Position numbers and translations under genes: made by a program. 33,980 nucleotides of DNA from an uncultured Alphaproteobacteria bacterium (GTDB taxonomy: Bacteria > Pseudomonadota > Alphaproteobacteria > Micropepsales > Micropepsaceae), in NCBI GenBank assembly GCA_903837555.1, contig CAILUV010000036.1, forward strand, positions 1 through 33,980, given 5' to 3'. Shown here piece by piece: positions 1-33,980 of this stretch (position 1 is its first letter; every line of letters begins with the position of its first letter). A model generated the notes under the pieces. That model made no database searches. It saw only the letters and a list, made by a program, of their open reading frames with translations, and was not told the DNA's origin.

Positions 1-588
1 GGCGGCCGTCTTCTTTTGGAGCTGTAAATGATTTGGACGTTCCATGCTCTCTCACTCAAGACAGGACAAGGACCCGGCGCTGTCTTATGCCCCCGGGTCC
101 GACAAAATTTCTTCGAGATCGATTTAAATCTAAGCCCGAAGTTCACCCAACCTGACGCCTATCCTGACGTCTTGCCGGCGCTTTTAAAGCAATCGGTTAT
201 CCTCTTTGCAAGAGGCATACGTATTACTTCAGCCGCGATCGGCGGATCATTCCACTATCCCTGTCGGAGGCAACGCTTTTGTGAATGGAGGCTGGCGCCT
301 TTTGCGGCGCACACTTCGCAACCGCAACATATCGAAACCGTCACCTTAGACCTTGGAAACAATAGGAAATCCCCATTACTAGCGACCAAAGCTGATCGTC
401 CAACTACGGAACATTGTGCGCGGGCGTCGCAAGAAAAGCTATTTTCGAGTTCCCTGTGTATACGCCATCTGACGTAGGCGCGGCGCAGCCAATGCGACAT
501 TGTTTCTCTATCGCCCCAGCCAACCGGGCGTGTGAGGACGCCGCGAAGCGCGATAAGGATTCTCGCGACAATTCGAAGGACACATTTG
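1..588. other. Left-edge region without a recognisable gene
   Basis: The first ~480 bases are visibly less GC-rich than the rest of the window and contain stop codons in most frames. The longest open frames here (for example 28-477 on +) translate to sequence without domain character, no good ribosome binding site and mixed codon use, so no gene is called. A short perfect hairpin lies at 201-215 (cctctt, loop tgc, aagagg). The last ~60 bases carry the ribosome binding site of the glyoxalase gene. The stretch may be an intergenic region, gene relics or the end of a transferred segment; nothing in it decides between these. Confidence 0.5.
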
Positions 589-3445: not shown

Positions 3446-6400
3446 TTAGATGCGGCCCAGCACGCTGATGGTGCCGACCTGCGTGGTCGAACCGTTGGAG
3501 CCGCGCAGCCAGTCATAGTTCACCCCGATATGCCAGGTGTCGGTGCCCAGGCCCAGGCTGGCACCCAACAGCGTGTTGCCCTTGTCCGGATCGGGGCCGA
3601 CAAAGGTCAGGATGTTGCCCGCCGTGGCCAGGCCGCCGGTCGATTCGAACGCGGCCTTCACCTTCACCGGCTGGCCCAGCAGCTCGTAGCGATAGCCGAC
3701 GCGCGCACCCGGCGTCAGATCCATGCCCCAGACCGCCACAGACTTCTTGAAGTCCACGCCCACCGCGGTGCGCAGCGAGTTGGCGTAATACGAACCGACC
3801 TGCAGGTTCATGCCGGTGCCGCCGCCGCGCTCGGTATAGCCTTCTTCGCGCAGGGTCATGCCGTCGAGCGAAACATAGGGATCGGTGTCGATGCCCAGGA
3901 AGCGCATCATCAGTCCGGTCTTGGCGCCCGCCGCGCCCATGATGCCGGCATGCTTGCTTTCGGCAACGCGGGTGCCGCCGCCCAGCGTCAGCGGACGGGC
4001 GGTGTTGAACTGGCCATAACCGGCGCTGAGGGTGGTGTCGAGGAACAGCTTCTTGCCCTGCCAGTGGGTATAGCCCGACAGCATGAACCACTGCGTGTCG
4101 GTCTTGCTGGAACGCGGCAACTGCTGCTTGACGTCGCCGGTATAGAAGGTGAAGGCGGCGCCGTACCAGCCGTTGCGCGGCCCTCCGCCATCCACGCCCA
4201 GCGCGAAGCCGAAGCCGTGATCCTTGAAGGCCGAGGTGGTGCCCGACGCATTCTTGCGGCCCTTGTTGTGGATCTGGCCGGTGAACTCTTCGCCCCACAG
4301 GGTCATTTCGCCCGGCACGCTGCCATATTGGCGCAGCAGGCGCTGACGCGCCGCCACCGGGCCGGTGGCCTGGTCGGTGATCATGATCGCGATCTCGCGG
4401 CCGCCGCCCGACGTATCGGGCGCGAATTGCGAGAAGACCTGCTGGGCCTGCTGCTGGCTGGCGGCGACGTTGATGCCGCTGCCCGCCACGCCCGGCGTGT
4501 TGTAGACGGTCATCGCGGTGGCGACGGCCGCGCCCAGGTCATTGTCGGTGGCCAGCGCCGCGGCAATGAAGGGGAAGTGGTTGCGCGTGTCGGCATCCAG
4601 GTTCAGGCCTGGCGTGCCGTTGGCGTTGAACTGGTTGACCGAGCGCGGACGCAGATTGAGCAACAGGGTCTGCTCGCCGCCCGATGTGCCGATCGACAGC
4701 GGCGCGATGCCGCTTTCCGCCGGGGTCTCGAACAGGAAGGGCGTGTTCTGGCCCAGCCGCGCATTCTGGTCGGCCAGCGTGGTGTCGATGAGGGTAGCGG
4801 CGCGGATCAACGTCACGGTCTGCACCGAGGGGTTGGCGACCGAGGCTGCGGTGAAGCCCGACGAGATGAAGGTGCCGAACTGCAACGCCAGGTTGGCGCC
4901 GCTCAGATTGGCGCTGTTGGCCTGCACCACCGGGGTCAGGCTGTTCAGGTTGGACTGCGATATGGAAAGGCCCAGCGTGGCGTTGGTGCTGGCGACGAAG
5001 CTGTTCGCCTGCAGCGCGGTGGTGGTGTTGGCGATGTACAGGATGCCGTTGTTGGAAACGGTGACATCCAGCGCGCCGACGCCCGAACGGATATCGGCAT
5101 TCATGTAGCCGAAGGCGCCGACATGCAGCTTGTGGCCGGTGCCCGAACCGAAATCCACCACCGCATGGTTGGCGCTGGGCGCACCCGTGTTCGGGCGGCT
5201 GATCAGCGACTCGCCGAGGATGGCGTAGTTGCTGGGCGTGTTGATGACGCCGGTGCCGTTGGCGGTATCCGCCGCGCCGGTATTGCCGACGTTCAGGACG
5301 TTGTTGTTGCCGGCCGCGCTGAACAGCACGTCGCCCAGGATGACGCCCGCATTGTTGATGGTGGTGCCGCCCGCGGTGGAGGCCGAGAGATCGACGGCGC
5401 GCTGGATCGACAGCACGACGGTGCCGGCCGACGGCGTCAGCACGGTGTTCACGGCGGTGATCGAGCCCGCATTGTTCAGCAGCTTCAGGCTGCCGGACTG
5501 GTCGACGATCGCCTGCGAGATCAGCGCGAAGGGCGAGGACGCCGTGGCCACGTCCGCCGCGGGCGAGATGGTGTTGGTTTCCACCTGGGCGATGACTGAA
5601 GCGCCCCGGCCGATATTGATCGCCGGAACGGTGGCGTTCTGGCCGATGGTGAGGGCGTTGGCGGTGCCCTGGCCTATACCCGACACCAGCGCCTTGACGG
5701 TGCCCTGGGTCTGGGTGCTGCCGCCCACGGTCTGCTGCTGGATGTCCAGGCGCGGAATGGTTGCGAAGGGGCCGACATAGATGGCGGCGGCCGAGACCGT
5801 GCCGCTGGCGCGGCTGGTGACGTTGGTCAGCGAGGTGGCCGAGATGTCGCCGGTCGACAGCAAGCCGCCGGTATTGAGCGCCGGGTTCCCGGCATTGACG
5901 CCGGTACAGGCGCCGACGCTGGCGCTGAGGCAGGTGTAATACGTGCTGGAATTGCCCTGGATGATAAGCGCGGCGGACGAAAGCTGCGCATCGAGCGGCT
6001 GCGCCTGGATGGCGCCGCGGTTGATGAAGGAATAGCCGGCATTGGCGCCGTCGATGTCGGTGGTGACGGGGCCCAGAATGGCCGGGCCGCGCGGCGTGGT
6101 CGTCAGCGCATTGACCGACCGGGACGGGTCGATCAGCACGGTGGGCTGCACCACGCCGCTGCTGACGATGCCGTTGGCCGCGATCAGCGCGACCGGAACA
6201 TTGCTGCCGGTGCCGGGGCCCGCATTGACGAAGCCGCCCGCGATCGAGCTGGCGATGATCACCGCCGAGCCGCTTTCGGGATTGTTGCCGCGCTGGTTGG
6301 GCGTGCCGGTGCCGGTCAGCGAGATCACGCCGGAGTTGACGAAGCTGCCGCCCGAAACGGTGGGGCAGGTAAAGCCGGCGGGCGCAGATCCCACGGCGCT

Positions 6401-26996: not shown

Positions 26997-29900
26997 ATGA
27001 ATCTGTCGCTTCCCTTCATCGAACGTCCGGTGATGACCACGCTGTGCATGGCCGCGCTGGTGATCTTCGGCGGCTATGGCTATGCCGCCCTGCCGGTCTC
27101 GGACCTTCCCAACATCGACTTCCCGACCATCCAGGTCAGCGCCTCGCTGCCGGGTGCCGATCCCGACACGATGGCGTCATCGGTCGCCGCGCCGCTGGAA
27201 AACCGCTTCTCGACCATCCAGGGCATCGACCAGATGACCTCGACGAGCCAGCAGGGCTCCACCAGCGTGCAGATCCAGTTCAACCTGAACCGCGATCTCG
27301 ACGGCGCGGCGCAGGACGTTCAGGCCGCCATCAGCGCCGCCACCCGCGATCTTCCCAAGTCGATGCCGCAGCCGCCCACCTTCCGCAAGGTGAACCCGGC
27401 AGACATGCCCATCCTGTTCATGGCGATCCGTTCCAAGACGATGAAGCCGTCGGAAGTGAACGAATATGCCGAGACGCTGCTGGCCCGCCAGCTTTCCACC
27501 ATCGAGGGCGTCGCCCAGGTCAGCGTGTTCGGCAACGCCAAGTATGCCGTGCGCATCCAGGCCGATCCGGCCGCGCTGGCCACCCGCAATATCGGCATCG
27601 ACAAGCTGTCCAGCGCGGTTGCCGCCGCCAACGTCAACATGGCGACCGGCGCGCTGAACGGTCCCACCCGCTCCTCCATTATCCGCACCGGCGGCCAGCT
27701 CAACAATTCGCGCGAATTCGAAGAGCAGATCATCTCCTATGTCGACGGCTCGCCCGTGCGCCTGAAAGACGTGGCGCGGGTGCTGGACGGGCAGGAAAAC
27801 CCCTATGCCAAGAGCTGGTACAAGGGCGATCCGGCCATTCTGCTGGCCGTTTTCCGCCAGCCCGGTTCCAACACGGTCGGCGTGATTGATGCCATCCGCA
27901 AGGTGCTGCCGCAGTTCCAGGCCAACCTGCCGCCGTCGGTGACGCTGGACGTGGTGTTCGACCGCAGCCAGATGATCCGCGCCTCGATCAACGACGTGCA
28001 GCACCATCTGATCATCGCCGGCTTCCTGGTGGTGGGCGTGATCTTCGTGTTCCTGCGCCGCCTGTCGGCCACCCTCATTCCCTCGCTGGCGCTGCCCATC
28101 ACCATTGTGGGCACCTTTGCGGGCATGGCGGCCTTCGGCTTCAGCCTGGACAACCTGTCGCTGATGGCGCTGACTTTGTCGGTGGGCTTCGTGGTCGACG
28201 ATGCGATCGTGATGCTGGAGAACATCGTCCGGCATATCGAGAAGGGCATGGAGCCCTATGCCGCCGCCATCAAGGGGTCGGAGGAAATCGGCTTCACCAT
28301 CCTGTCGATGACGATTTCGCTGGCGGCGGTGTTCATCCCCATTGTCTTCATGGGCGGCATTGTCGGCCGACTGCTCTACGAATTCGCCGTCACCATCATC
28401 ATCGCCATTCTGATCTCGGGCATGGTGTCAGTGACGCTGACGCCCATGCTGTGCGCCCGCATGCTGAAGAACGAGCATGGCGAGAACCACAACGCCCTGT
28501 ATCGCTGGAGCGAGACCAGCTTCAACAAGATGCAGGATGCCTATGACCGCACCCTGACCTGGAGCCTGAACCACCGCCGCACCATCCTGGGCATGTTCTT
28601 CGCCAGCCTTGCCGCCAGCGTCGTACTGATGAGCGTGATGAAGCAGGACTTCCTGCCCGCCGATGACTCGGGCCGCATCCAGGGCAATATCCAGGCCGCC
28701 AACGGCACCTCGTTCGAGCAGATGGCCAAATACGTCAAGGATGTCACCGACATCATCGCGGCCGATCCCGATATCACCGGCGTGCTGGCCAGCATGGACG
28801 GCTCCAACGGCGCGGCGGGCACCAACAGCGCCCGTATGATGATGATCACCCTGCGCGAACAGAGCGTGCGCGAGTCCACGCCGGAGCAGGTTATCGCCCG
28901 CCTTCGGCCCAAGCTTTCGCGCATTCCCGGCGTGAACGTCTTTCTGACCAACCCGCCCACCATCCGGCTTGGCGCGCGCGGCTCGCGTTCCAACTACCAG
29001 TACACATTGCAGGGGCTGGACCAGGAACTGCTGCAGGAATATTCGGCCAGGCTGATGGCCGACCTGCGCGCCCGCCCCGGCTTTGTCGACATCACATCCG
29101 ACTATGAATCCGCGATGCCGTCGGTGCAGGTGGAAATCGACCGCGACCGCGCCGCCGCCTTCGGCGTCTCGGCAATGCAGATCCAGCAGGCGCTGGGCAG
29201 CGCCTTCGGCGGCCAGCGCATCTCCCAGATCAATACCTCGTCCAACCAGTACGAAGTGATCATGGAGCTCTTGCCCGAATACCAGCGCGACGCCGCATCG
29301 CTGGACCGGGTCTATGTCACGGGCGCCGGCAACCAGTTGGTGCCGCTGACAGCCGTGACCCGCACCACCACCTCGACGGTGCCGCTGTCGGTGAACCATG
29401 CCGGACAAATTCCCGCCATCACCATCGCCTTCGACCTGGCGCCGGGCCGGGCGCTGTCCGACGCGGTGACGGGCATCCGCGACGCCTCGGAAAAGATCGA
29501 AATGCCCGCGTCCATCCAGGGCAACTTCCAGGGCACCGCGGCGGCGTTCGAGGATTCCACCAAGAACATGGGCATGCTGCTGATCATCGCCATGGTGGTG
29601 GTCTACATCATCTTAGGGATACTCTATGAAAGCTTCATCCACCCGCTGACCATCCTGTCAGGCCTACCGTCGGCAGCGGTCGGCGCACTGCTGACGCTCT
29701 ACATCGCGCACCTGTTCTTCGTGATGGGGCTGACCAGCACCGACATGTCGCTGACGCTCTATGCGTTCGTTGGCATGATCATGCTGATCGGCATCGTGAA
29801 GAAGAACGCGATCATGATGATCGACTTCGCCCTGGGCCGGCAGCGCGAGGATGCGAGCGTGACGGCGGAAAGCGCCATCTACGAAGCCGCCATCACCCGC

Positions 29901-30134
29901 TTCCGCCCGATCATGATGACCACCATGGCGGCCCTGATGGGCACGCTGCCCATCGCGTTTGGCGCAGGCGCGGGCGCGGAATCGCGCCGTCCCTTGGGCC
30001 TGGCGGTGGCGGGCGGCCTTCTGGTTTCGCAGCTTCTGACGCTCTACATCACGCCGGTGATCTACACCTACCTGGACCGCTGGTCGCGCAAGATCGCGCC
30101 CAAGGAGCATCCCAGCGCGGTGCCTGCCGAGTAG
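26997..30134 (+). CDS. RND multidrug efflux permease (HAE1 family, MdtB/MuxB-like)
   Basis: 1045-aa proton-driven exporter with 12 transmembrane helices and two large periplasmic loops. The start NLSLPFIERPVMTTLCMAAL is characteristic of MdtB/MuxB/AcrB relatives. Asp401-Asp402 in GFVVDDAIVMLENI carry the proton relay, and the second half repeats the pattern with LYAFVGMIMLIGIVKKNAI. Length fits the family. Most MdtABC systems have two permeases; only one is encoded here. Substrate is unknown. Transcribed with the adaptor gene. A hairpin that covers the start codon of the following gene begins nine bases after its stop. Confidence 0.95.
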   Translation: MNLSLPFIERPVMTTLCMAALVIFGGYGYAALPVSDLPNIDFPTIQVSASLPGADPDTMASSVAAPLENRFSTIQGIDQMTSTSQQGSTSVQIQFNLNRDLDGAAQDVQAAISAATRDLPKSMPQPPTFRKVNPADMPILFMAIRSKTMKPSEVNEYAETLLARQLSTIEGVAQVSVFGNAKYAVRIQADPAALATRNIGIDKLSSAVAAANVNMATGALNGPTRSSIIRTGGQLNNSREFEEQIISYVDGSPVRLKDVARVLDGQENPYAKSWYKGDPAILLAVFRQPGSNTVGVIDAIRKVLPQFQANLPPSVTLDVVFDRSQMIRASINDVQHHLIIAGFLVVGVIFVFLRRLSATLIPSLALPITIVGTFAGMAAFGFSLDNLSLMALTLSVGFVVDDAIVMLENIVRHIEKGMEPYAAAIKGSEEIGFTILSMTISLAAVFIPIVFMGGIVGRLLYEFAVTIIIAILISGMVSVTLTPMLCARMLKNEHGENHNALYRWSETSFNKMQDAYDRTLTWSLNHRRTILGMFFASLAASVVLMSVMKQDFLPADDSGRIQGNIQAANGTSFEQMAKYVKDVTDIIAADPDITGVLASMDGSNGAAGTNSARMMMITLREQSVRESTPEQVIARLRPKLSRIPGVNVFLTNPPTIRLGARGSRSNYQYTLQGLDQELLQEYSARLMADLRARPGFVDITSDYESAMPSVQVEIDRDRAAAFGVSAMQIQQALGSAFGGQRISQINTSSNQYEVIMELLPEYQRDAASLDRVYVTGAGNQLVPLTAVTRTTTSTVPLSVNHAGQIPAITIAFDLAPGRALSDAVTGIRDASEKIEMPASIQGNFQGTAAAFEDSTKNMGMLLIIAMVVVYIILGILYESFIHPLTILSGLPSAAVGALLTLYIAHLFFVMGLTSTDMSLTLYAFVGMIMLIGIVKKNAIMMIDFALGRQREDASVTAESAIYEAAITRFRPIMMTTMAALMGTLPIAFGAGAGAESRRPLGLAVAGGLLVSQLLTLYITPVIYTYLDRWSRKIAPKEHPSAVPAE

Positions 30135-30171: not shown

Positions 30172-31299
30172 CTGCACCCCATCAAGCTTGCCGTCTTTGC
30201 CGTGCTGCTGGCACTGCCCGCCGCGGCCCAAACCCCGTCCACCATCGACGCTCAGACACGGCGCATCATGGCCGCCACCGGCGCCAATGGCCTGGCCGTG
30301 GCCTTCATCGACCGTGGCCGCGTCACCCATGTCGCCGCCTTCGGCAAGCGCAACGCCAGCGGCGAACGCCTGCAGACCGACACGGTGATGCACGGCGCCG
30401 CACTGACCAAGACCGTGTTCGCCTGGCTGATGGTGCGGCTGGTGGATGAGGGCAAGATCGACCTCGACCGCCCGCTGGCGTCCTATCTGCCCAGGCCGCT
30501 GCCCGAATATCCCGCCTATGCCGCGCTGGCGGGCGACGCGCGCTGGCAGGCGATCACCGCCCGCCATGCCCTGACCCATTCCACCGGCTTCGCCAATTTC
30601 TTCTTCTTGGAGCCGGACAAGAAGGCGCGCATCCATTTCGCGCCCGGTAGCCGCTATGCCTATTCCGGCGAAGGGCTGCACCTGCTGCAGTTCGTGCTGG
30701 AAGAAGGCCTGAAGCTGGATATGGATGCACTTGCCAGTACCGAATTCGCCCGGCTGGGCATGACGCGCACATCGGTCAAATGGTGCGCCGATTTTTCCGG
30801 CAACGTGGCCGATGGCTGGAATGATCGCGGCGAGGCGCAGCCACACGAGCAGCGCGCCCGCGCGCGGATGGCCGGTTCGATGGACACGACCATCGCCGAC
30901 ATGGCGAAATTCGCCGCCGCGCTGGTGACGGGCAATGGCCTGTCGCCTGCGGCGGCCGCCGAACTTGCAAGGCCGCAGCTTGGCATCACCACCTGGCGCC
31001 AGTTTCCCACCTTGCAGCCCGAACTGCCGCCCGACACGCAGGACGACGACCTTTCGGCCGCGCTGGGTGTGGTGACGTTCCGGGGACGCGAAGGGCCCGG
31101 GTTCTACAAGAGTGGCCATGACGCGCAGACCGCCAGCACGCTGGTGTGCCTCAAGAGTTTGCAGCGCTGCGTGGTGCTCCTGTCCAACGATGTGCGGGCC
31201 GAAGCGGGCTTTGCCGATCTGGTGATCGCGATACTGGGCCAGACCGGCGTGCCCTATGCCTGGGAATATGGCCGCCGCGCCGGGAAGTCCGAACCCTAG
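30169..31299 (+). CDS. Exported class C serine-hydrolase-like protein lacking the catalytic serine
   Basis: 376 aa with a signal peptide (KLAVFAVLLALPAAAQ). It is of the beta-lactamase/penicillin-binding-like family: region DEGKIDLDRPLASYLPRPLP, THSTGFANFFFLEP, then FAPGSRYAYSGEGLHLLQFV with Tyr166-Ser167-Gly168. The nucleophile motif SxxK reads A78-L-T-K81 (GAALTK, codon gca at 30400-30402), so the acylating serine is Ala, although the general-base lysine is kept. The protein is otherwise full length and uninterrupted. It could be a pseudoenzyme that binds peptidoglycan or a lactam, or carry a recent loss. Its start codon lies inside a strong hairpin and no ribosome binding site is visible. 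Its stop overlaps the convergent gene by four bases. Confidence 0.85.
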   Translation: MLHPIKLAVFAVLLALPAAAQTPSTIDAQTRRIMAATGANGLAVAFIDRGRVTHVAAFGKRNASGERLQTDTVMHGAALTKTVFAWLMVRLVDEGKIDLDRPLASYLPRPLPEYPAYAALAGDARWQAITARHALTHSTGFANFFFLEPDKKARIHFAPGSRYAYSGEGLHLLQFVLEEGLKLDMDALASTEFARLGMTRTSVKWCADFSGNVADGWNDRGEAQPHEQRARARMAGSMDTTIADMAKFAAALVTGNGLSPAAAAELARPQLGITTWRQFPTLQPELPPDTQDDDLSAALGVVTFRGREGPGFYKSGHDAQTASTLVCLKSLQRCVVLLSNDVRAEAGFADLVIAILGQTGVPYAWEYGRRAGKSEP

Positions 31300-31952
31300 A
31301 CCAAAGCCCTGCGCCGCTGCCAGCCCATCAATTGCAGCATCAGCGCAACGGCGATCGCGGCTGAAGCGGTGCCGATCCAGCCCCATTCGGGCGCCTTCAC
31401 CCCGAACTGATAGGTCCAGGTGTGGACCGCGACCAGCGCGAAGGCCGCGTAATTCCAGCGCTGCAACTGTTTCCAGCCGGGGGTTCCCAGCTTGCGCAGG
31501 CTGGCGTCGTTGGAGGTCGCCAGCAGCACCAGAATGATCAGGGCGGCGACCAGGCCAGTGTGATTTCCCAGGCCGAACACGTCATAGCGCAGCGGCATGA
31601 CATGCCCATCACGCCAGTTCTCATAAACATAATAGAGCCAGGGCCGCCCGCGCAGATGCTCGAAATTGCCGATCACGGCATGGAAAATGCTCACCATCCC
31701 GGCCCAGATTCCCAGGTCGCGGCGCAGGTCCAGCGACACCGCGGGCCGCGATCCCGTCAGCGATTTCCACGGTCCCACCAGCAGGGTGGCAGCGACCAGG
31801 AACAAGGCGGGATAAGCGCTGGAAAAACTCAGCCGTGTGATCACATCGGGATAGGAGCGGGTGACATAGAGCAGTCCGGTCAAGCCAAGCGTGGCCAGGC
31901 CAATCGGCAGATGATGGCGCAGCAAACGCTGCGACAGGCGACGAGAAAGCAT
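31296..31952 (-). CDS. Ferric-reductase-like transmembrane protein
   Basis: 218-aa inner-membrane protein with about six hydrophobic helices. It resembles the heme-binding membrane part of the ferric reductase/MsrQ (YedZ) group: His91 in GIWAGMVSIFHAVIG, His131 in GLGNHTGLVAALI and His177 in VAVHTWTYQ are candidate b-heme ligands; segment ATSNDASLRKLGTPGWKQLQ is a typical helix-linking loop of these proteins. Partner and electron donor unknown; there is no msrP nearby. Divergent from the cytochrome-c-like gene with 84 bases between, so the two may be controlled together. The stop overlaps the upstream convergent gene. Confidence 0.75.
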   Translation of the reverse strand: MLSRRLSQRLLRHHLPIGLATLGLTGLLYVTRSYPDVITRLSFSSAYPALFLVAATLLVGPWKSLTGSRPAVSLDLRRDLGIWAGMVSIFHAVIGNFEHLRGRPWLYYVYENWRDGHVMPLRYDVFGLGNHTGLVAALIILVLLATSNDASLRKLGTPGWKQLQRWNYAAFALVAVHTWTYQFGVKAPEWGWIGTASAAIAVALMLQLMGWQRRRALV

Positions 31953-32036: not shown

Positions 32037-32495
32037 ATGCAATCCCGAGCCCTGCTCCTGGCCGCCATGATCGTGTCGCTGGTGGCCGCGGGTCTCTGGA
32101 TTTTCCTGGGTCGCGAGCCTGCGGCACATTCCGACAATCGGCAGCAGATTGCCGCCGGAGAGAAAATCTACGCGGCCAACTGTGCTGCCTGCCGCGGCGC
32201 CAAGCTGGAAGGCGAGCCGAACTGGAAGGTGCGCAAGGAAAGCGGCCGGCTGCCGGCACCGCCTCACGACGCCACGGGCCACACCTGGCATCATTCCGAC
32301 GCGCATCTGTTCGGCATCGTCAAGGACGGGCTGACGGCTTATGCGCCTGCGGGGTATGCCACCGACATGCCCGCTTTCAAGGGCATTCTTTCCGACGCGG
32401 ACATTCGCGCCGTGCTGGCCTATATCAAAAGCACCTGGCCGCAGGACATCCAGGATCACCATCGCCAAATATCGGCGCAGCCTGCAAGCAACTAG
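32037..32495 (+). CDS. Membrane-anchored cytochrome-c-like protein with altered heme motif
   Basis: 152 aa with an N-terminal membrane anchor (ALLLAAMIVSLVAAGLWIFL). The class I cytochrome c domain runs from EKIYAANCAACRGAKLEGEP to the C-terminal helix ADIRAVLAYIKSTWP, with Met111 (DMPAFKG) as sixth ligand. The heme attachment motif CXXCH reads Cys49-Ala-Ala-Cys52-Arg53: codon cgc at 32193-32195 replaces the expected cac or cat of His, one A-to-G change. Without the His ligand heme attachment by the Ccm system would be impaired. Start ATG 32037 lacks a clear ribosome binding site; GTG 32028 in frame is possible. Next to the ferric-reductase-like gene and the Cu-type OMP. Confidence 0.82.
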   Translation: MQSRALLLAAMIVSLVAAGLWIFLGREPAAHSDNRQQIAAGEKIYAANCAACRGAKLEGEPNWKVRKESGRLPAPPHDATGHTWHHSDAHLFGIVKDGLTAYAPAGYATDMPAFKGILSDADIRAVLAYIKSTWPQDIQDHHRQISAQPASN

Positions 32496-32501
32496 CTGCG
32501 C

Positions 32502-33854
32502 CTATTCCGCGAGAATGCGCATGAACACCATGTTGCCATGCGGGGTTGATCCATAGCCCAGCGCTGCGGGCGCAAAGGCAAAGGCGTGCGAGGCGCCCAG
32601 CCCCAGCTTCCAGTTCTCGCTGATCCGCCAGTCATGCACCGCGCCGATGCTGAGCTGGCCCACACGGTTCACCGCATGGTGCGCCCCCAGTTCGGCATTC
32701 TCCACCCACTCGCCCCTTACGAACACCGACCAGGGATCGTTTGGCTTGTAGGTGGCCTCCAGCACGGCGGCGTTCAGATTGTTGCCGTCGCTGAGCTGCT
32801 TCAGTCCCCAGGCCGCCGTCATGGCGATGGATTGTTCGCCCCCCAAGGCGCGGAAATACTGCGCGCTGGCGGTGAAACGGTCTTCGTTCTTGCCGGGATC
32901 GAGCTGTTCGGGGCTGTTCAGGTGGCCCCAGCTTGCCTGCAGCGACCAGTTTTCGCTGGGGTTGAAGGACAGCCGCGCGGCGGTGGAATCGAATTTCGGC
33001 TTGTCGAAGTTGAAGCGGAACTGGTCCGGCTCGCGGCCTGTGAACTGCGAGACTTCCAGCTTCCACTTGTCATGCACGAAGCCCGCCGTCGCCACGCCAA
33101 AGGTGATATGCGTGGAATCCAACCAATGATGGGTGATCGGCGCCGACGGGTTCGCCGCCGCGCTGGCGCGGTGCATGAAGGCGGGCGGCCCCAGCGCCGG
33201 TTCGCCGGGATAGCCCAGATAGAGAAATGCGGAATCCGTATCGGACAGGCGGTGGCTGTAGCTGGCGGCCATTTCCATCACCAGCTCATGCGGATGCTGG
33301 CGGTCCAGCAAATGCCGACGCCCGTCGGCGGTCTCGCCGCTGGCCAGCAACAGCGGATAGCCGTCCTTGCCCATCAACGGATCGGGGCTGAGCATCAGCC
33401 GCAGGTTCAGCGTGCCGTCGCCAAAGTCGCGACGCGCCGCACCCATCGCCATGCCGGCCGCAAAGGCCTTGTCATCGCCGCGCGGACCCGACTGGTTGGA
33501 GTAGACGCCCGCCAGCGACAGATGCCCCATCAGCATCCAGTTGCCGGCCTGTTCATGCACCCCGCCATGGCGCGCGGCATCGGGCTGCCAGGCGGTGCCC
33601 GAGGCATCGCGGCTCATCGGATAGCCGCCCAGCGTGCCGGTCATGGGCATCTGGTGACTTGAATAATCCATTGGCATCACATGGCCGGCGTGCGGATCGG
33701 CTGCGGGGGGCTGATGCTGGTGCTCCTGCGCCAGCGCTGGCGCGGCCAGCGCGGCGAAGGGAATCAGGAATTTGAGCGACGCGGCGAACCACAGCCAGAA
33801 GCGCACCCGCGCGCTGTTGTTGCGCAGGGAGAGCGCCAGCAGCGCCGCGGTCAT
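32502..33854 (-). CDS. His/Met-rich outer-membrane protein with a BlaR1-like N-terminus
   Basis: 450 aa. Residues 1-36 (LALSLRNNSARVRFWLWFAA and FLIPFAAL) match the start of BlaR1/M56-type sensor proteases. Then APALAQEHQHQ gives a signal-peptidase-like site and the mature protein begins. It has a His/Met-rich segment (HAGHVMPMDYSSHQMPM) as in CopB-type copper proteins and about 350 residues with alternating strands typical of a barrel (LSLAGVYSNQSGPRGDDK, HHWLDSTHITFGVATAGF, WKLEVSQFTGREPDQ). Relatives of the mature part occur in copper- and metal-resistance loci; binding of copper is inferred. Its ATG overlaps the stop of the BlaI-type gene (ATGA, 33851-33854), so it is translationally coupled to the repressor. 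Confidence 0.8.
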   Translation of the reverse strand: MTAALLALSLRNNSARVRFWLWFAASLKFLIPFAALAAPALAQEHQHQPPAADPHAGHVMPMDYSSHQMPMTGTLGGYPMSRDASGTAWQPDAARHGGVHEQAGNWMLMGHLSLAGVYSNQSGPRGDDKAFAAGMAMGAARRDFGDGTLNLRLMLSPDPLMGKDGYPLLLASGETADGRRHLLDRQHPHELVMEMAASYSHRLSDTDSAFLYLGYPGEPALGPPAFMHRASAAANPSAPITHHWLDSTHITFGVATAGFVHDKWKLEVSQFTGREPDQFRFNFDKPKFDSTAARLSFNPSENWSLQASWGHLNSPEQLDPGKNEDRFTASAQYFRALGGEQSIAMTAAWGLKQLSDGNNLNAAVLEATYKPNDPWSVFVRGEWVENAELGAHHAVNRVGQLSIGAVHDWRISENWKLGLGASHAFAFAPAALGYGSTPHGNMVFMRILAE

Positions 33855-33980
33855 GCGTCTTTGCGCTTCTTGGAAAGGTCGCGCAGCAGCTTTTCGGCGT
33901 CCGCGACGTCCTTGGTGGTCAGGTTGCCCGCTTCGATAAGCTGGGCCATCACCGGCTGCATCCGGCCGCCGAACATGCCC
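33851..33980 (-). CDS. BlaI/MecI/CopY-family repressor, C-terminal part only
   Basis: The gene runs off the right edge; 42 C-terminal residues are seen, GMFGGRMQPVMAQLIEAGNL and then TTKDVADAEKLLRDLSKK. The FGG-x(3-5)-PVMAQLIEAG-L-T-x-KDVADAEKLL pattern is the C-terminal dimerisation helix of BlaI/CopY repressors, which are released from DNA by BlaR1-type proteolysis (BlaI/MecI) or by copper (CopY). The expected sensor protease is not encoded next to it. Confidence 0.8.
   Translation of the reverse strand, partial: GMFGGRMQPVMAQLIEAGNLTTKDVADAEKLLRDLSKKRKDA

Follow-up and report, generated by a model that had tools for sequence, protein, structure and literature searches.

A blaR1 remnant fused to an outer-membrane-type protein gene behind blaI, a likely product of natural deletion

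Which gene takes the place of the sensor-protease BlaR1 behind a BlaI repressor, and how did it come to be there? The question is posed by one end of the DNA analyzed here, a stretch of 33,980 nucleotides (the window) that constitutes the entire contig C36 of G000, a draft genome of 2.46 Mb assembled as 101 contigs. On the minus strand, a reading frame of 450 residues (32502–33854) starts at an ATG that overlaps the blaI stop codon (ATGA; stop at 33853–33851), stays open over all 450 codons and, as judged from homology on both sides, carries an N-terminal remnant of a BlaR1/M56 protein in frame with an outer-membrane-type protein (OMP). We hold it to be likely, with good confidence, that a natural deletion-fusion left the blaR1 remnant and the OMP as the second gene of the blaI operon. 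The BlaI–BlaR1 and MecI–MecR1 systems (PMC9834060, PMC2658668) share with this locus the repressor family and the repressor/sensor-protease pair that its relatives retain; by contrast, here the sensor-protease is gone, the repressor is kept and another gene occupies the sensor's place.

Two sources for one reading frame

The first part of the chimera (33741–33854, minus strand) comprises a start stub, an RNNSARVR loop and transmembrane helix 2 of BlaR1. Its approximately 38 residues (MTAALLALSLRNNSARVRFWLWFAASLKFLIPFAALAA) are homologous to M56/BlaR1 N-termini of the same genus: residues 2/3 to 38/39 are 86% identical to the protein of G036, 84% to that of G015, 74% to G012, 69% to G001 and 67% to G018, with weaker matches in G029 and G008, and residues 17–55 of G036 BlaR1 aligned with window positions 33854–33738 at 82% identity (E 6e-15) in an own-genome search. 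The isolated 43-residue start found no match in Pfam or NCBIfam, and the M56 assignment thus rests on the whole relatives, such as the open M56 gene of G001, which scores 119 bits to Peptidase_M56. The HEXXH zinc-protease domain is absent from the chimera, as had been proposed, and a search of the whole G000 genome for an M56 protease returned a best score of 16.4 bits against a cut-off of 31, leaving the repressor without such a protease above cut-off.

The remainder of the frame (32505–33728, minus strand) encodes a mature outer-membrane-type protein with a His/Met-rich start, whose relatives occur in heavy-metal clusters. Its Pfam matches are porin-type and all sub-threshold, and its AlphaFold model is strand-rich and weak (mean pLDDT 51.5). 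The OMP has three plasmid matches, and both of the contexts read lie near a heavy-metal or copper ATPase: a Sphingobium baderi plasmid (NZ_CP128178.1) has the order MerR, glutaredoxin, small, small, OMP, with a heavy-metal P-type ATPase close by, and on a Pontibacter plasmid a copper ATPase adjoins the OMP. The cleavage site follows 17–23 residues in all four relatives aligned (an inner start codon being chosen for two, L048 and L051) versus 42 in the chimera. Matches to the whole chimera protein occur in 23 of 61 genomes searched, and in none of the 61, except for the window itself, do the BlaR1 part and the OMP fall within a single match. An ordinary N-terminal extension of the OMP was considered and rejected, as the OMP begins far more briefly in the four relatives and it is M56 genes that the chimera's first residues resemble; a start that aligns with ordinary OMP N-termini and lacks M56 matches was looked for and did not appear. 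With separate relatives for each half, the initial reading of a BlaR1/M56 start fused to an OMP is borne out, and the overlap of its ATG with the blaI stop agrees with the claim that coupling to the repressor was kept.

Several features suggest that BlaR1 helix 2 could stand in as a Sec signal peptide ahead of the OMP's own APALA/Q site. First, the best 15-residue hydropathy mean of the chimera start is 1.8, and a charge of +3 lies within the first 18 residues, both of which suit a signal peptide; the hydrophobic stretch also holds a lysine (SLKF), which is unusual for one. Second, helices 2 and 3 of Staphylococcus aureus BlaR1 are linked by an extracellular loop that lies at the outer leaflet (PMC9834060). 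With that loop outside, helix 2 would run outwards from a positively charged cytoplasmic loop, N-in/C-out, in the sense of a signal peptide. Alternatively, codon 17, a GTG, might serve as an internal translation start (VRFWLW... would then be MRFWLW...); the signal peptide would be short and conventional, and the BlaR1 stub ahead of it a leader. The G036 OMP begins MRFSV..., and a start just ahead of the RF residues would resemble it. Nevertheless, no Shine–Dalgarno-like stretch was seen by eye upstream of the GTG, and the overlap of the ATG with the blaI stop is like the starts at intact blaI–blaR1 pairs (offset −3), making the internal start unlikely.

Junctions, contig end and gene order

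Comparison with G036 points to two deletions behind the fusion, with the upstream ATG retained as its start. The first would have removed 48 bases of blaR1 between exact copies of GCGCTGCTGG, two of which lie 48 bases apart in G036 blaR1 and one of which remains here (33836–33845, minus strand); the core of transmembrane helix 1 (DHLWQSTLVAALAALL) is gone. The second would have run from about BlaR1 residue 54 through to the core of the OMP signal peptide. Its junction (33741–33752, minus strand), placed by protein and base alignment, consists of Ala-Leu-Ala-Ala codons that both partners possess; the G036 genes for BlaR1 (from codon 51) and the OMP (from codon 12) are identical at 10 of these 12 bases, the longest exact run between the partners being 5 bases as judged from that genome, and the contexts are FAALAA/LGE in blaR1 and ALAA/PAWAQ in the OMP signal peptide. 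Both proposed deletions would thus end in Ala-Leu-coding stretches. What remains is the positive stretch RNNSARVR, BlaR1 helix 2 and the OMP's own cleavage motif, and the remnant differs from G036 with dN 0.13 and dS 0.56. Homology on both sides of the junction, together with sister gene order, agrees with the initial annotation that most of blaR1 was deleted and its helix placed before the OMP; the event stands, and its number does not, because two deletions are required and the 48-base one had been overlooked.

That such joins fall in frame may need little explanation. Among 36 pairs formed by nine genes, drawn from G036 and from the window (GC3 0.78–0.88; blaR1 taken up to its frameshift), 502 of 688 maximal exact matches of at least 9 bases (73%) were in the same codon phase, where one third would be expected without phase bias. 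Matches in phase numbered 15 of 17 between blaR1 and the OMP gene and 24 of 28 between blaR1 and the glutaredoxin-MauE gene, and phases were uneven too when one partner was reverse-complemented (202, 41, 297). Codon-shuffled genes gave the same in-phase share (74%): codon usage is by itself enough for fusions to fall in frame by default. With shared stretches mostly in phase, an in-frame join needs no selection, and 'in frame' is weak evidence for it, at least across the nine GC-rich genes tested.

The window ends inside the repressor gene, of which it holds the last 42 codons and the stop (33851–33980, minus strand). The complete blaI lies on another contig (G000:C6:18013–18396), downstream of a rhomboid-like gene named from its sequence, and encodes 128 residues with a Penicillinase_R domain (PF03965; 84.9 bits, or 84.4 in the genome search, against a cut-off of 22.6). 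The placing of a BlaI-type repressor beside the chimera is therefore sound as to identity, the complete gene being on C6, and not as to a whole gene within the window. The ends of C36 and C6 share 141 identical bases (33840–33980), an overlap of the kind that MEGAHIT leaves where its graph branches at k=141; the opposite end of C36 showed no such k-overlap. A graph branch here implies that some variant sequence exists at this point, and with G036 as reference it lies 4 bases ahead of the point where a sequence carrying the 48-base deletion would part from one lacking it. With the contig breaking beside the first junction, the sample may hold another variant of the blaI locus. The branch might reflect an intact blaR1 variant. 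Separately, window positions 1–200 are 97% identical to G000:C2:2671–2870, a repeat at the opposite contig end.

This branch bears on the possibility that the assembly wrongly merged reads from two loci or two strains into a chimera found in no cell. The genome is a draft, the edge of the 141-base overlap coincides with the first junction and variant sequence is nearby, and the fusion was seen in G000 alone. However, both junctions lie inside C36, and the shared stretches (10 bases; 10 of 12) look too short for a k-mer join. Moreover, the 450-codon frame is open, its halves are neighboring genes in G015, and two other sister assemblies join blaI to the same cassette with different breakpoints. 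We regard such an artefact as quite improbable.

Gene order in relatives gives the deletion-fusion its background. At loci where blaR1 has an unbroken frame, the order is rhomboid, blaI, blaR1, followed by one or more genes for a domain of unknown function (DUF) in G012, G071 and G080; the open loci of G012, G071, G079 and G001 also have an RND pump in convergent orientation (the G080 stretch ends earlier). Contig G036:C7 reads DUF, MerR, glutaredoxin-MauE, Met-rich, OMP, cytochrome b, bla and RND, placing the cassette between the DUF gene and the same pump, with MerR and bla pointing left and the four genes from glutaredoxin-MauE to cytochrome b pointing right. We infer from the gene order that contig G036:C53 adjoins C7; their sequence overlap, of 9 bases only, was not accepted. 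In G015 the order is blaI, broken blaR1, OMP, cytochrome b, RND, and in G064 it is blaI, a fusion of BlaR1 helix 1 with MauE, Met-rich, OMP, cytochrome b, RND. Ancestrally, the locus probably ran from rhomboid, blaI and blaR1 through the DUF gene(s) to a metal cassette of MerR, glutaredoxin-MauE, Met-rich, OMP and cytochrome b, and on to the convergent RND pump. By comparison with G036 and G064, the larger deletion in G000 probably also took the intervening DUF, MerR, glutaredoxin-MauE and Met-rich genes.

The Sphingobium baderi cassette (NZ_CP128178.1) has the G036:C7 order, with glutaredoxin upstream of the OMP and a divergent MerR gene; in contrast, the OMP of G000, G064 and G015 stands behind blaI, and the MerR gene has no match in the stretches read of these three genomes. 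Each sister keeps sequence lost elsewhere, most of blaR1 in G015 and the MauE half with the Met-rich gene in G064, indicating that the final junctions arose independently; some sisters may share an earlier loss of the DUF gene and MerR part. As to the DUF gene itself, four tandem matches lie downstream of blaR1 at L123 (4637–7999, G080:C195), the last cut by the stretch end; G012 has two matches, and the G036 copy has no Pfam family at E 0.01.

BlaR1 loss and BlaI retention across the genus

A search of 69 genomes of the genus (cut-off E 1e-40) yielded 29 blaI loci in 18 genomes, 14 in group I (at least 80% identity) and 15 in group II (58–70%); G029, with frameshifts in both blaI and blaR1 (blaI E 6e-31), fell outside the cut-off. 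The BlaI frame is open at all 29 loci. BlaR1, scored as open when its frame is unbroken and not by its individual active-site residues, is open and full-length at 18 of them (7 of 14 in group I, 11 of 15 in group II), open up to a contig end at one locus in each group, and broken at nine (six in group I, three in group II); next to the G000 blaI only the remnant stands. In a tree of rhomboid and BlaI sequences, G000, G036, G064 and G015 are set apart with 100% support, and at the seven loci of this clade BlaR1 is broken seven times and BlaI open seven times.

No lesion was seen to be shared among the clade BlaR1 genes. In the group I locus of G064 (L114, about 5063–5460, G064:C19), BlaR1 helix 1 is in frame with the MauE domain and the glutaredoxin domain is lost; the junction is an in-phase GGCGCTGCT common to G015 blaR1 and the G036 glutaredoxin-MauE gene, and the fusion scores 47.0 bits to Pfam MauE versus 46.8 for the whole G036 glutaredoxin-MauE protein. 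Group I blaR1 carries a frameshift and a stop in G015. Its single frameshift in G036 falls in a stretch of seven consecutive G and may be an error of assembly. In group II, blaR1 is cut near codon 51 in G064, has lost codons about 38 to 200 and gained a stop in G015, and is cut at about codon 15 in G036 (L119, G036:C7, near record position 39178). Also in group I, blaR1 of G016 and of G018 is reduced to a stump that runs into the 3′ end of the DUF gene. Behind the cut blaR1 of L119 stands a DUF2946-like gene (23.4 bits against a cut-off of 23.7), followed by a TonB-receptor-like gene, another possible capture.

Do these losses reflect anything beyond neutral decay? BlaR1 may simply be dispensable in a small-genome clade, the fusions being by-products and BlaI being kept by chance or for other targets, a reading to which we give nearly even chances. 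Nine of 29 BlaR1 genes are broken by differing lesions, the four clade genomes measure 2.4–2.8 Mb as assembled, in-frame joining is the default (502/688) and the conserved element ahead of blaI, described below, may be partly a ribosome-binding site. The idea that BlaI was specifically spared found no significance in a length-only test, in which the chance of nine lesions in BlaR1 and none in BlaI is 0.13 (assumed lengths 1490 and 384). By contrast, BlaI still looks constrained in the clade, with dN/dS of 0.06–0.17 among the four sisters for group I (0.04–0.21 among three for group II; 0.10–0.23 among four for the OMP), although the losses may be too recent for this to count. Also difficult for decay alone is that in three sisters, through different final junctions, one and the same OMP cassette has come to follow blaI or its blaR1 remnant immediately.

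A more ambitious reading, which we offer tentatively and think doubtful as it stands, is that the repressor has been captured repeatedly. In the clade, BlaR1 would have been lost by different lesions while BlaI stayed under selection, and the second operon position would have been refilled by membrane or exported proteins of the metal cassette via in-frame, helix-for-helix swaps, creating a new BlaI regulon with the repressor unchanged. Such swaps would be easy because the GC-rich Ala-Leu codons of helices give short shared stretches that are mostly in phase.

More broadly, the locus looks like a set of natural replicates of the deletion-made fusion and operon capture described in laboratory evolution. 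In experiments with Pseudomonas fluorescens SBW25 (eLife 2015;4:e07074, PMC4395868), deletions made gene fusions and captured promoters. As there, deletions here would bring the beginning of one gene into frame with another gene farther downstream, which may gain a new promoter, and they recur at one locus. Unlike there, the hosts are natural sister species, the captor is the repressor's own operon, and the fused part is a membrane or signal helix. Literature searches, judged by title and abstract, for losses of BlaI or BlaR1, for copper regulators of the BlaI family and for fusions at microhomologies returned no report of such a case, and the natural recurrence and the helix-for-signal-peptide swap are new as far as that literature goes. 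Because sister breakpoints differ at one locus, the order of sensor loss, repressor retention and gene capture is testable.

Regulation and neighboring genes

If the deletion-fusion is as we propose, a full-length BlaI with an operator-like element ahead of its gene would now regulate its own operon, with the OMP as the principal product. The candidate operator is a 22-base element (C6:17985–18006), an imperfect CTATTACGATTGTAG-type sequence that ends 6 bases before the blaI ATG. The four sisters have 20 of its 22 positions in common where the flanking bases differ, and it occurs once in G000 within 3 mismatches (0 for a reversed-pattern control); clear CTACTAC..GTAGTAG dyads are found in relatives G078 and G075b. 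The element also contains AGGTGG, which at 6 bases from the ATG is likely to be a ribosome-binding site, and because of this overlap its conservation is only partial evidence for an operator. As read from the sequence, BlaI most likely still represses its own operon, OMP included, without its known inactivator; lacking an M56 protease, it would either stay a fixed autorepressor or be released by some other route. In strains with truncated mecI/mecR1 (PMC2658668), mecA control is taken over by blaR1/blaI or becomes constitutive.

The initial annotation had also raised a copper response of the CopY type, which would make this BlaI a copper-sensing repressor of a copper gene. CopY_TcrY is indeed the best NCBIfam match of BlaI, and the OMP family occurs in metal clusters. 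However, that match, at 49 bits, is far under the TIGR02698 cut-off of 122, and the relatives of BlaI are paired with M56 proteases. The metal site of CopY is a C-terminal CxC, and this BlaI has no cysteine at all, so that the site is absent. The copper-sensing proposal thus finds no backing here, and we consider it very improbable. For annotation more generally, the presence of BlaI need not imply BlaR1 or a beta-lactam response.

The genes beyond the OMP recall the cassette seen in relatives. A cytochrome-b/ferric-reductase-like membrane protein (31296–31952, minus strand; 26.3 bits, just below the 28-bit cut-off) corresponds to the gene that follows the OMP in the cassettes of G036, G015 and G064. 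Between it and the OMP, and convergent with the latter, lies a cytochrome-c-like gene (32037–32495, plus strand; 48 bits) with no match in the stretches read of those three genomes; its product has CAACR in place of the heme motif CxxCH. Farther along is an RND efflux pump (26997–30134, plus strand), named from its sequence, which is the convergent neighbor of the locus in most relatives read. Lying between the pump and the cytochrome-b gene, a serine hydrolase of the beta-lactamase family (PF00144; 30169–31299, plus strand; 130.6 bits) is a conserved neighbor in G036. It reads GAALTK versus GASLTK in the 78% identical G036 orthologue, so that the presumed SxxK nucleophile is an alanine.
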